The translations under genes and the position numbers were made by a program. A stretch of DNA of 64,000 nt from Pseudomonadota bacterium (GTDB lineage Bacteria > Desulfobacterota > Binatia > Binatales > Binataceae): assembly GCA_021323945.1 (NCBI GenBank), contig JAJPKA010000014.1:124001-188000 (forward strand). Direction: 5' to 3'. Below the pieces are notes generated by a model. That model was not told the DNA's origin. It searched no databases and was given only the letters and a program-made list of their open reading frames with translations. Positions 3,590 to 64,000 of this stretch are shown here, one piece after another. Every line of letters starts with the position of its first letter. Positions within the stretch are counted from its first letter, which is position 1.

Positions 3590-4597
3590 TTAGAACGAGG
3601 GATTCTGCTCGACAACGCATGAAATGAAGGTGAAGGCGTACATCGCAACACCAGGATCCAGCACTCTCAGTCTGAGGCTTCCAGATAAAACGGAGCGATT
3701 TGCTACCAGGTTATACATTCGTGGCCGGTCCACGTCGATGAAGTAATGCCCATTTAGCGGCCTGACGTCGGCACCGGGAAGCTGCTCTGCCCCCATCAAA
3801 AGCTCGACGCGCGCCGGGCTTTTCGCGCCGGGCGCCATCACGAGGTTGACATCCATCGCCGTGTAACGAAGCAACAACTTAGCGCCAGGTGCTGCCGCCC
3901 TGGAGTATTCCTCGCCAACGCACCATCGGCCAACAAGATAGGCAGCACCCTCGACATAGCGTCCCGGGTCGGCATAGTCGAAAGTCTTGTCCCGCGCTAC
4001 ACCGCCCGGATTGCCAAATTGGCCCCGCGTGTATCCGAGGTAGAGTTCGGGTGTGACGCGATAGCAGACCGCGCCGGGGATGTCGCTTTCCCGGAGGGGT
4101 TTCATCAGGTCGGGAAGTTGAGCCAGCGGGTCGAGCTCTTTGAGGAGTTTTTGAATCTGTTTTTCGGTGTCCTGATAAAGACCCTCGCCGAAATGGTAAT
4201 AGCGCAGCCGGCCTTCAAGATCGATCAGATACTTCGCCGGCCAATAGCGATTCGAATACGCTTGCCAAATTGAATAGTTGTTATCGAGCACTATCGGGTA
4301 GTCGAGTGCAAATTCCGCGATCGCCTCACACACGTGGGAGCGATTGTGAGCGAAGGTGAATTCGGGTGCATGTACACCGATAATTACCAAACCTTTCCCT
4401 GCATAGCGGCGATGCCATTCACGGACATATGGCAAAGTCCGAATGCAGTTGACACAGGTATAATCCCAGAAATCGAGCAACGCGACGCGGTGGCCTCTCA
4501 ATTGCGCCAATTGGATAGGTCCGCCCTGGATCCACTCGCCACCCTGTAGTTCCGGCGCCAGAATAGTCTCGTTTATCTGTGGCATCGTGTCACCCAT
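3590..4597 (-). CDS. thioredoxin-like protein with DipZ-type C-terminal domain
   Basis: A 335-residue protein. The N-terminal half is a TlpA/thioredoxin-like fold with the redox motif WDYTCVNC (Cys48 and Cys51 from the first ATG), followed by IIGVHAPEF. The C-terminal ~170 residues are beta-rich and match the layout of the soluble half of mycobacterial DipZ, where a thioredoxin domain precedes a carbohydrate-binding-module-like domain. The CcdA-like membrane half of DipZ is absent and I see no signal peptide, so it may act in the cytoplasm. A second ATG four codons in (4585) is an equally possible start. Substrate unknown; domain assignment is from recognition of the family. Confidence 0.8.
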   Translation of the reverse strand: MGDTMPQINETILAPELQGGEWIQGGPIQLAQLRGHRVALLDFWDYTCVNCIRTLPYVREWHRRYAGKGLVIIGVHAPEFTFAHNRSHVCEAIAEFALDYPIVLDNNYSIWQAYSNRYWPAKYLIDLEGRLRYYHFGEGLYQDTEKQIQKLLKELDPLAQLPDLMKPLRESDIPGAVCYRVTPELYLGYTRGQFGNPGGVARDKTFDYADPGRYVEGAAYLVGRWCVGEEYSRAAAPGAKLLLRYTAMDVNLVMAPGAKSPARVELLMGAEQLPGADVRPLNGHYFIDVDRPRMYNLVANRSVLSGSLRLRVLDPGVAMYAFTFISCVVEQNPSF

Positions 4598-4824
4598 CAG
4601 CTCGACGAACCAAGCTGCGGTGTTCAGCTGCTATTGTCAACCCGTCCTCGCAACACCAGGCGGGAGCCGGGTCGCACTTTCGATTAGCCTTTGCTCCATG
4701 ACCGTCGCACAGTATCATACCGCAATTGAAGCCTATAGCCGGGTGCGATCCGGGATTGATTGGCGCGTGTGAGGAGCTGCGATTCAAAGGTATGACGCGA
4801 TACGAATCGCTCGGAGCAACGGCA

Positions 4825-5259
4825 ATGAGTACTCAAGTCAAGGTAGTTGAGGTAACCGAACGCTCTCAGATGCAGCAGGCTTGGATGATTCGGCGCCTTG
4901 TTTTTATCGACGAACAAGGTGTGCCAGCAGAGATCGAACTGGATGCGGATGACGCGATCGCATTTCACGCTCTTGCCTTAGACGGCACGGTACCAGTGGG
5001 TTGTGGCCGCCTGGTGGTACGCGACGGATTGGCGAAGATAGGACGGATGGCGGTGCTGCGCGAGCGCCGTGGTCAGGGGATCGGGAGAAGTATCCTGACT
5101 TTCCTCATGGATCGCGCCCGCCAGCAGGGATTTGCGCGAGCGGTTTTGCATGCACAGCTTAGCGCTGAAGGCTTTTATTTAAAAAATGGCTTTCTGCCTG
5201 AAGGGGAAATTTTTGAAGAGGCCGGCATTCCCCATCGCCGGATGTCCTGTCAACTGTGA
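4825..5259 (+). CDS. GNAT family N-acetyltransferase
   Basis: A 144-residue acyltransferase of the GCN5-related family, probably transferring acetyl from acetyl-CoA to an unknown amine. The acetyl-CoA pyrophosphate-binding motif is RRGQGIG, preceded by the GRMAVL strand; HAQLSAEGFYLKNGF forms the usual C-terminal part, resembling the ElaA/YjcF branch. The ORF track starts at 4726. I prefer the ATG at 4825 because GGAG lies at a good distance before it and the family fold starts here (VKVVEV, followed by IRRLVFIDEQGVP). It is divergent from the thioredoxin-like gene. Confidence 0.85.
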   Translation: MSTQVKVVEVTERSQMQQAWMIRRLVFIDEQGVPAEIELDADDAIAFHALALDGTVPVGCGRLVVRDGLAKIGRMAVLRERRGQGIGRSILTFLMDRARQQGFARAVLHAQLSAEGFYLKNGFLPEGEIFEEAGIPHRRMSCQL

Positions 5260-60610: not shown

Positions 60611-61172
60611 ATGCTCCACCGTCTGGAGACGTTGACGAAATCAACCATCAATACACTTTTTGGTGTTGTTCCAAGTGTGATTTTGGCGATCGCAGTTGGC
60701 GGCACTCGCTCCGAAGCCGCTGCGTCCCGGGCTTTTTCATCTACGGCCGTCGCTGACACGGCAAGTAATCCCGAATCATGGCAGCAGGCTGCCGATCAAG
60801 CTCTGCAAAAAGCGGAAATCGCAACTGGGAAGGCATATGGCATACAGCGAAGTCGTGGAGGATTTAGAGGACTTCTCACTTGAAGCAAAAATAATGGCCA
60901 TGCTGCGCGAAAACAAGATTACGCGTGATTCCGATATTCATGTGCATGCTAACAATGGTATTGTGACGGTCAGCGGTCACATGGCCTCGCCCCAAAAGGC
61001 GCGCCAAGTCCAGTGCATCGTATCAAACGTCTATGGTGTTAAGGGTGTGAAGAATGCGCTTACGGCACCCAATGATGAGGTCACCGTGACGCGGTCTGCG
61101 GCGGATTCTGTGCAAGTGGCTCAGCCGTCGCCCAGCGGCACGGAGCCCGCTGAGAAATCGTCGGCTCCTTAA
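60611..61172 (+). pseudogene. BON-domain envelope protein split by a frameshift
   Basis: Two partly overlapping ORFs supply halves of one protein. The 5' frame (60611-60883) gives an N-terminal hydrophobic signal (NTLFGVVPSVILAIAVGG) and a helical piece ending ALQKAEIATGKAYG. The next frame, entered near 60837, gives a BON domain (DSDIHVHANNGIVTVSGHM, VSNVYGVKGVKNAL) and a polar tail. In intact BON proteins such helical stretches lead straight into the domain, so a 1-bp change near 60836-60842 (GCATATGGCATAC) is the likely cause. An ATG at 60837 could alternatively start a coupled leaderless BON protein. Phospholipid/membrane binding is the family role. Confidence 0.7.
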
Positions 61173-61245: not shown

Positions 61246-61620
61246 ATGGCAGATAAAAACCTCTCGGAAGCGACCCAGAGCGCTGCGGCATCGGCTCGTC
61301 AGGCGGCAGCCGGCGCGCAGGAGTATGTTGGCAAAAGTGCAGACGCGGCTCGCGATTATGCCAGCAAAGGATATGAAACCGCGCGCCAGTACGCTGATAC
61401 GGCACGCGAGTATGCTACCAAAGGCTATGATGCAGCGCGCGAATACGCGAGCCAAGGCTACGAGGCCGCCCGCGAGTATGCCAATACCGGGATCGAGGTC
61501 GCGGGAAGGGTTAGCGATAATTTGTCCGAATTCGTACGCAAGGAACCGTGGATTGCTGTTGCGGCGGCGTTCGCGATTGGTTACGTCACTGCACGCATAT
61601 TGCGTCGCCTTTCAGTCTAG
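61246..61620 (+). CDS. YqjD/ElaB-like protein with hendecad repeats and C-terminal membrane anchor
   Basis: A 124-residue protein. Residues ~20-85 repeat units such as ARDYASKGYET, AREYATKGYDA, AREYASQGYEA and AREYANTGIEV, mostly 11 long with one 7-residue unit, giving an amphipathic helix or coiled coil as in LEA-like and apolipophorin-type proteins. The end EFVRKEPWIAVAAAFAIGYVTARILRRL is the DUF883/YqjD membrane anchor, linked in E. coli to ribosome binding. AAGGAG stands before the ATG. It lies in a row with the BON gene and a small membrane protein, suggesting a stress or stationary-phase unit. Confidence 0.8.
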   Translation: MADKNLSEATQSAAASARQAAAGAQEYVGKSADAARDYASKGYETARQYADTAREYATKGYDAAREYASQGYEAAREYANTGIEVAGRVSDNLSEFVRKEPWIAVAAAFAIGYVTARILRRLSV

Positions 61621-62145: not shown

Positions 62146-62553
62146 CTAGCGATTTTTTGGTTTGCGCTTGTCGAGCAAAGTCGCGATCGCATTGACGAGC
62201 GGGTCAATCTTATAGGGCTTCCGGAGGAATGAATCGTAGCCGAGGCACCGTTCTTTGACGCTTTCCTCAGGCAATGCGCTGGTAACGATCACGGGAATCG
62301 AGGAGTATTCGGGGCTGGCAGCCAGTACTTTGAGCACCGCGGCACCGTCCATTACGGGCATCATCAGGTCGAGCACAATCAGTTCGGGTTTATTTTCCTG
62401 GACACGCATCAGTGCATCCCGCCCATTAAGTGCGGTTACTACTGAATAGCCAAGATCCGTCAGGATGAATTCGAGCACCTCGAGAACCCCGGCTTCGTCA
62501 TCGACGATGAGTATCGTCCTGCCGGCCGGATTGGAATCGAGGGGCTTCGCCAT
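62146..62553 (-). CDS. single-domain response regulator (CheY-like receiver)
   Basis: A 135-residue receiver domain with all phosphorylation residues visible: acidic pair in LIVDDEAGV, phospho-acceptor Asp in IVLDLMMPVMDG, Thr/Ser switch in IVTSALPEES and Lys in FLRKPYK. No output domain follows, so it must act through protein contacts. Its start lies 12 bp after the KaiC-family gene stop on the same strand, implying a shared operon and function. GGTGAGGA precedes the ATG. Confidence 0.93.
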   Translation of the reverse strand: MAKPLDSNPAGRTILIVDDEAGVLEVLEFILTDLGYSVVTALNGRDALMRVQENKPELIVLDLMMPVMDGAAVLKVLAASPEYSSIPVIVTSALPEESVKERCLGYDSFLRKPYKIDPLVNAIATLLDKRKPKNR

Positions 62554-62565
62554 TCCTCACCACCA

Positions 62566-64000
62566 TCACTTCTCGCGCAACTCCACAGGTGATGGGGTCG
62601 CGCGATACAGACCCGAGAGCAGCACTTCGGCACTGGCCGAATCCGGAGCGATCTCGATTCCCTGGCTAGTAATCGACAACTCGCGAAGATTAGAATCGAA
62701 GGCGCTGTCACGGACCTTTAGGATCGATAGCACCCTGGATAACTTTGCCCCGAGCTCAACAAAACGCAGTATGATGTGATTGTCCGTGGTGTCTGAGAGG
62801 CCGACCAACGGAGCGGTCATTGTCGGTCCTATAATTTCTACAGGCTCGGCCGTGCAGATCGTCGTGGTCCCCATTCGAGCCAAGGCCTCCGCCAAGGCGG
62901 CCAAAAATGGCTCCATGGGGCGAGAACGAAGCGCTTTCTTGAAGCCGCCCAAGCCGTCGAGCACCAGACGGCGCACCTTTCTACGACTAACTGCCTCTAG
63001 CAGCCGAGCCGCCAGCTCATCGAGTACCCATTCGGAGGGTGCTTGCCAAAGAATCTCAATGATACCCGCATCAAGTGCCTCGACGAAATGGGGGAACATT
63101 TGAGCTCTGGTACGGATCCGCGCCGGAGTCTCGTAGAATCCGAATAACAAACCAGGTTCGTTGCTATTTGCTTGGGCCAGGAAGTGGAGTCCCATCGTAG
63201 TTTTGCCGGTGCCCGATGGCCCCACTACCATCGTCAAAGTGCGCTCCGGAATGCCTCCTCCCATCATTGAATCCAAGCGCTCAATTCCGGACGAGACGCG
63301 CTTGAGGCGGACATCGTCGGCTGGCAAATTGCGCATTTGCGCCTCTAGCCTTGGATATACCGTGATACCGCCCACACCTATCTGATAATTGTGAACCCCC
63401 TCGAGATAGGAACTGCCGCGAAACTTTCGAATCTGGAGTTCGCGCATCATCCCACAATTGCACAAGGCGCCCGCAAGATTAATGACACCGTCGACCATGG
63501 TTTCTTCGGACGACGGTTTGACCTCAACAGGATTAACCAGTAGAAACACGCTGCAATCCGCTGCATCCGCGTGAGTCTGAAGCTGCTGCACAAAGACTTT
63601 CAGCTCTTCAGAGGAGTGGGCCGAATCAGACGCCGAGGCGAAGCCGTCGAGCACCAGGATCGTCGCCTGGCGCATCGCCACTTCGCGTCGAAGCAGATGT
63701 AATAATCCTGTCAGCCCATCGCTTTTCAAAGTTTTAAATCCACTGATATAGAAAATACCAGTTCCGACCATCCTTTCATCAAAAAAATCCAAGCCGCTCA
63801 GATTACGGAGCATACGCCCAACAGTTTCGGCCATAAGTGTGACGTACAAGACGCTGCTGCCTGCTCGTGCATGACAAAAGGATAGTTGGTTGCCAAAAAT
63901 GGTCTTACCCGTACCCGGAGCGCCTTCAACGATGTAGAGGCCGCCCCTGATAAAGCCACCTTGGAGGACTCTATCCAGTCCGTCGATTCCCGAAGTTAGC
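62566..64000 (-). CDS. two-domain KaiC-family ATPase (5' end outside window)
   Basis: The reading frame continues past the track start (63849) to the window edge, giving at least 478 residues. The first domain holds Walker A EGAPGTGKT, encoded around 63910, and the second holds VGPSGTGKTT at about 63210. Both domains carry RecA/KaiC features (SGIERLDSMMGGGIPE; LVLDGFAS and LVLDGLGG as Walker B strands). The usual KaiC catalytic glutamate pair is not obvious: the segments read TLMAETV and GFYETPAR. Related KaiC-like proteins work in stress, motility or phosphorelay signalling. It is followed by a lone response regulator. A circadian role should not be assumed. Confidence 0.85.
   Translation of the reverse strand, partial: LTSGIDGLDRVLQGGFIRGGLYIVEGAPGTGKTIFGNQLSFCHARAGSSVLYVTLMAETVGRMLRNLSGLDFFDERMVGTGIFYISGFKTLKSDGLTGLLHLLRREVAMRQATILVLDGFASASDSAHSSEELKVFVQQLQTHADAADCSVFLLVNPVEVKPSSEETMVDGVINLAGALCNCGMMRELQIRKFRGSSYLEGVHNYQIGVGGITVYPRLEAQMRNLPADDVRLKRVSSGIERLDSMMGGGIPERTLTMVVGPSGTGKTTMGLHFLAQANSNEPGLLFGFYETPARIRTRAQMFPHFVEALDAGIIEILWQAPSEWVLDELAARLLEAVSRRKVRRLVLDGLGGFKKALRSRPMEPFLAALAEALARMGTTTICTAEPVEIIGPTMTAPLVGLSDTTDNHIILRFVELGAKLSRVLSILKVRDSAFDSNLRELSITSQGIEIAPDSASAEVLLSGLYRATPSPVELREK

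Follow-up and report, generated by a model that had tools for sequence, protein, structure and literature searches.

A KaiC-like ATPase gene followed by a dedicated stand-alone receiver gene: a near-invariant pair with an optional histidine kinase

The KaiC-like ATPase gene at the edge of the window (the whole stretch of 64,000 nucleotides analyzed) and the receiver gene behind it belong to a clade in which the ATPase gene was followed by a receiver gene of one family in 78 of the 79 assessable loci. With a probability of about 0.6, the two genes constitute a bicistronic KaiC/receiver unit outside the clock, in which an ATP-loaded ring would serve as a switch or scaffold without catalytic base and would be directly coupled to the receiver. 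The kaiC-receiver arrangement as such has been known since 2011 as a heterogeneous third context of kaiC genes (PMC3164672). To this the present analysis adds that, in one clade, the pair is nearly invariant, the receivers form a dedicated family, a kinase is optional and both ATPase domains have lost the first Glu; none of these points was found reported in a literature search that did not include Makarova 2017 and Terrettaz 2023.

Results

The ATPase gene (62566..64000, minus strand) encodes a two-domain KaiC-family protein of 486 aa and is cut by the window edge, the last 26 bases at its 5' end lying beyond it. On the contig extended beyond the window (L002), the complete ORF was located at L002:2567-4027, with the ATG start codon at L002:4027, equivalent to window base 64026. 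The KaiC stop and the receiver start are separated by 12 bp in the sequence (62554..62565, minus strand), and the stand-alone receiver gene (62146..62553, minus strand) encodes a single-domain response regulator of 135 aa without an output domain. The earlier note had given both ORFs with the correct order, strand and spacing. The first clear gene upstream of the ATPase gene was divergent and came after about 0.95 kb, and the genes downstream of the receiver were on the plus strand; therefore, the two genes appear to stand alone as a bicistron. Extension of the contig upstream, a check proposed in the earlier note, revealed no histidine kinase, kaiA or kaiB gene adjoining the pair. A search of the window genome (G000, 95.5% complete) with PF07689 gave no KaiB match, and the control search was positive in Synechococcus elongatus. 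The terminator scan returned no more matches than chance and the promoter scan nothing usable.

Two plus-strand genes convergent with the pair were observed at 60696-61172 and 61246-61620. They encode a protein with a BON domain and a phasin-like one in which Y-A-rich segments are repeated, and resemble genes for envelope or stress proteins. A common stress-gene neighborhood was rejected, since these BON and phasin-like genes were absent near the KaiC genes of relatives. Some sphingomonad and rhizobial KaiC copies had a LigD or universal stress protein gene beside them. Outside the window, L002:8446-15292 carried genes for an integrase and for toprim/primase-like and helicase-like proteins, with a GC content of 0.61-0.65 beside a region of 0.52. 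These genes probably belong to an integrated element some 4 kb away from the KaiC gene.

A GTDB scan with two peptide patterns detected 80 loci and, together with the window and two close homologues, 81 remained after duplicate removal. In 76 loci the receiver domain began at -6 to +45 bp relative to the KaiC stop, and a receiver was confirmed in two more (L018 and L068). Two loci, L055 and L076, were left out of the 79 assessable ones as their contigs end too early, and the sole true exception was L051, a Ktedonobacteraceae MAG with no receiver after KaiC. From this spacing across relatives we infer that the KaiC and receiver genes are co-transcribed. The pair was distributed in at least five phyla, namely Pseudomonadota, Myxococcota, Chloroflexota, Bdellovibrionota and Planctomycetota. 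In the two closest homologues, both in the window's family (64% and 61%), the receiver started 8-17 bp after KaiC. A receiver also followed KaiC in 8/8 plasmid loci, which had not been chosen by motif, and six of these receivers were annotated as 'response regulator'. The conservation across genomes on which the earlier note had made its proposal depend was thus found, and the pair is not absent from relatives.

Individual loci showed other arrangements. A tandem KaiC-receiver-KaiC was detected in a Bdellovibrionales MAG (L055:4083-7533), two tandem receivers followed KaiC on a Paraburkholderia plasmid (L109:4953-5777), and in one MAG the KaiC reading frame was in two parts (L018:5995-7449), reflecting a frameshift or an assembly error. 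No KaiC-receiver fusion was confirmed; in L068, L086 and L088, the long ORFs that overlap were readings of another frame.

At this level of similarity, the KaiC-like gene was identified in only 3 of 148 genomes of the window's class. In the KaiC tree, the window lineage grouped with the copy of the alphaproteobacterial Rhodopila, and the clade around them was made up of Alphaproteobacteria and some Gammaproteobacteria. KaiC-like copies were also present on 27 PLSDB plasmids, 13 of which were predicted to be conjugative or mobilizable. Tree placement, scarcity in the class and plasmid copies together suggest horizontal acquisition of the KaiC-like gene. As to a phage origin, no match was found in phages, and a defense system was rejected because the matches in PADLOC, to P-loops and receivers, were all weak.

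The window receiver matched Pfam Response_reg (E 2.4e-22) and no other domain. The acidic pair D19/E20, the phospho-acceptor D62 (62368..62370, minus strand; 100% in 76 paired receivers) and K112 were conserved in the paired family. With their own HMM the paired receivers scored mostly 122-156 bits, while receivers away from KaiC genes scored at most 84. The low-scoring paired receivers were a truncated ORF call (73), the tandem second copy of L109 (109) and the extra copy of L055 (90). By this separation of scores, the paired receivers are one specific family with all phosphorylation residues. The distances of KaiC and receiver correlated with r = 0.85, and the pairwise correlations among KaiC, receiver and kinase were 0.85-0.90, all of these values being uncorrected for species history.

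The ATPase matched the Pfam KaiC model (PF06745, E 4.7e-58) in two stretches. Its AlphaFold2 model, based on an alignment of 65 sequences, had a mean pLDDT of 92 and gave a full-length match to full-length PDB KaiC chains (TM about 0.8, 22-27% identity); both the HMM search and the structure prediction suggested in the earlier note therefore agreed with a KaiC fold. The clock KaiC models scored far below their curated cut-offs on the 477 aa of the ATPase inside the window (TIGR02655, 117.7 vs 546; NF006799, 179.9 vs 408).

Motif conservation was counted over the 81 clade members, and all motif coordinates of the ATPase refer to the minus strand. G35, P37, G38, G40, K41 and T42 were invariant in the CI Walker A motif GAPGTGKT (residues 35-42, 63901..63924), while the CII Walker A motif GPSGTGKT (residues 269-276, 63199..63222) had K275 in 81/81 and T276 in 77/81, with Ser in the other 4. 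The inter-subunit fingers were K201 and R203 in CI (63418..63426; KaiC K224/R226), both present in 81/81, and K437 and R439 in CII (62710..62718; KaiC K457/R459), present in 79/79 ungapped members. In KaiC these trans Lys/Arg fingers have catalytic roles, and of each EE pair the first Glu (E77 and E318) serves as catalytic base and the second (E78 and E319) as Mg ligand (PMC2777353).

The observation in the earlier note that these paired glutamates are reduced to one in both domains was upheld, with AE in CI and YE in CII. In CI the register was given by profile alignment to EE-type KaiC, which placed a one-residue insertion before the replaced Glu; the first Glu was lost and the second was kept as E67 (63826..63828, KaiC E78 position), the E77 position being Ala (window motif MAETV). 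The CI motif of the clade was L-[A/S/V]-E, with Glu in 81/81 preceded by Ala (64), Ser (10), Val (6) or Gly (1), a conservation that was partly selected for, since one of the two scan patterns covers this motif. Eight plasmid loci obtained by whole-protein tblastn carried the same CI motif. The CII motif lies outside the scan patterns and its register is direct. It read F-[Y/H/F..]-E in the clade and YETPAR in the window, the retained E299 (63130..63132, KaiC E319 position) being Glu in 77/81 (3 Asp, 1 gap). The E318 position was Tyr in the window and Tyr (43), His (13), Phe (7) or others in the clade, and no Glu was seen there in the 81 members. By alignment, the residue lost in both domains is the one at the published catalytic base position, and the nucleotide site is retained.

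S411-D412 (62791..62796) aligned with the KaiC phosphosites S431-T432 in the alignment to PDB KaiC. Position 411 was Ser in 53/81 members and position 412 was Ala, Ser, Pro or Asp, therefore, the phosphosites are not conserved. Since the catalytic base is missing in both rings, ATP hydrolysis by the window protein would probably be slow or nearly nil, and KaiC-type autophosphorylation would be absent. E394, which was Glu in 71/81 and sits in the strand where KaiC CI has E183, could replace the lost base, so that CII might still hydrolyze ATP.

A kinase gene was located directly upstream of KaiC in 40 of the 81 loci. Among the 39 upstream kinases scanned, HATPase_c was detected in 39/39 and HisKA in 31/39, and PAS or receiver domains occurred in single members only. 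In the homologue with 61%, the gene of a 270-aa HisKA-HATPase kinase overlapped the KaiC start by 4 bp, and the closest relative with full context displayed the order kinase-KaiC-receiver with genes overlapping or 8 bp apart. In the sphingomonads, the gene found in its place was kinase-like, encoded a PAS domain and lay downstream of the receiver, as read from the sequence; a sphingomonad plasmid copy of it was annotated 'PAS domain S-box protein'. Polyangium had a convergent kinase near the pair, and no kinase was found near the pair in Tardiphaga, Myxococcaceae, Dictyobacter and the window. On the KaiC tree, kinase presence required at least 8-9 changes. The linked kinases formed a family of their own, with 252-373 bits compared with at most 236 for other kinases. 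No kinase elsewhere in the window genome was clearly the linked one, as the best of 12 kinase matches reached 236 bits and the linked kinases at least 252. A degraded upstream kinase gene at the window locus was also rejected; six-frame tblastn and HMM searches of L002 bases 3951-5050 gave nothing significant. Judged by gene content, KaiC and receiver are the fixed core and the kinase is the variable part.

Discussion

De Luca et al. (2011) described a third kaiC context, in which kaiC is often followed by a receiver gene and has zero or one conserved phosphosite (PMC3164672). The window pair falls within this description, with its receiver 12 bp after kaiC and at most one conserved phosphosite (S411). 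The single-domain receiver after KaiC, the poor phosphosites and the lack of an adjoining kaiB are common to both. The third context, compared here by description and not by residues, was treated as a diverse leftover group (PMC3164672), whereas the present clade has a near-invariant receiver of a specific family and has lost the first catalytic Glu in both domains.

Cyanobacterial KaiC (KaiC1) with SasA-RpaA shares with the clade the two-domain fold, the P-loops, the trans fingers and the link to a kinase and a receiver, but the clade lacks the EE pair and conserved phosphosites, and the window genome gave no KaiB match. RpaA carries a DNA-binding domain, whereas the receiver of the present pair stands alone. 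The Ramlibacter-type kaiC + Nt-HK, the second context, also combines a KaiC-like gene with a two-component kinase, but there the kinase is downstream, has a KaiB/SasA-like N-terminus and is not accompanied by a lone receiver (PMC3164672). Coupling of a KaiC ATPase, physically or functionally, to a receiver domain is likewise seen in the archaeal KaiC-REC fusions, restricted to six genera of Methanosarcinaceae (PMC5847659), and, as far as it is cited there, in the proposal of KaiC as a hub (Makarova et al., 2017). The archaeal fusions are one gene, whereas the bacterial pair consists of two separate genes. Environmental Pseudomonas also have KaiC-like proteins that are non-clock relatives of KaiC (Terrettaz et al., 2023), with roles in stress resistance and biofilm as cited in PMC11832031. 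In the present clade, the genus is represented by Pseudomonas mosselii L049, which has the order kinase-KaiC-receiver.

We propose that both genes form one bicistronic signaling unit of a widespread non-clock KaiC clade. The ATPase would most likely be a KaiC-type ATP-loaded double ring, presumably hexameric, to judge from the KaiC fold of the model and from the two P-loops and the trans Lys/Arg fingers kept in the alignment. Its role would be that of a nucleotide-dependent switch or scaffold, with direct contact probably coupling its state to the adjoining receiver. Such direct coupling is favored since KaiC and receiver are constant while the kinase is swapped or lost. The receiver would be phosphorylated by the neighboring kinase where one is encoded, and in the window genome probably by a kinase encoded elsewhere. 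Once phosphorylated, the receiver would then act on the ring and would not serve solely as its output.

The earlier note had proposed a signaling unit distinct from the KaiABC clock with the receiver as output of the ATPase. The separate unit stood, in line with the five phyla, the frequent kinase and the lack of a KaiB match, and conservation beyond chance supports it. The output role may apply, but kinases vary around a constant pair, which fits an input or a subunit at least as well; from the gene arrangements we lean slightly towards the receiver as input. A narrower version, which we hold tentatively and at less than even odds, is that the base-less ATP-binding double ring changes state when its dedicated phosphorylated receiver docks, with no clock-like autokinase and as a module that distant phyla have in common and that plasmids carry. 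The upstream kinases, mostly without a recognized sensor domain, would fit the opposite direction, from KaiC to kinase to receiver as in SasA-RpaA, in which the ring would read its nucleotide state and gate the sensor-less kinase, and the receiver would be the output. Such a relay would also suit the tight kinase-KaiC-receiver order of the closest relative with full context and the separate family of linked kinases. However, about half of the loci, including the window, have kept the receiver without an adjoining kinase, and no other kinase of the window genome scores within the linked family; we consider the relay rather unlikely.

It is highly improbable that the protein is a KaiC-type timer, either hourglass or clock, running slow ATP hydrolysis and phosphorylation cycles. 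The fold and the oligomer-interface residues are those of KaiC, but the catalytic-base Glu is missing in both domains, the phosphosites are not conserved, and KaiB had no match in the window genome. For KaiCs unable to phosphorylate two residues, de Luca et al. (2011) concluded likewise (PMC3164672). Two unrelated genes lying side by side by chance can practically be dismissed, being already contradicted by the adjacency across phyla (78/79 and 8/8) and by a receiver family of its own.

To our knowledge, KaiC relatives occur across bacteria and archaea, mostly without known function. The present clade is a clean test case with its constant two-gene core and optional kinase. It shows the catalytic base, the phosphosites and KaiB to be dispensable, in contrast to the P-loops, the trans fingers, a single Glu in each ring and the receiver, and it thus opens an approach to the question of what KaiC rings that do not keep time are for.

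Other KaiC types were observed in the window's class. In L008:1-2955 and L006:1-2934, the gene after a second KaiC type encoded a kinase whose N-terminal domain is unusual. This arrangement is similar to the KaiC + Nt-HK context (PMC3164672), and one of these KaiC copies belongs to the window's genus. Another KaiC type, with the CI motif GEP, had directly before it the gene of a small protein, about 145-180 aa long and apparently conserved (L012:875-1309, L013:3009-3446 and L005:947-1492), and in L012 and L013 a kinase followed KaiC.
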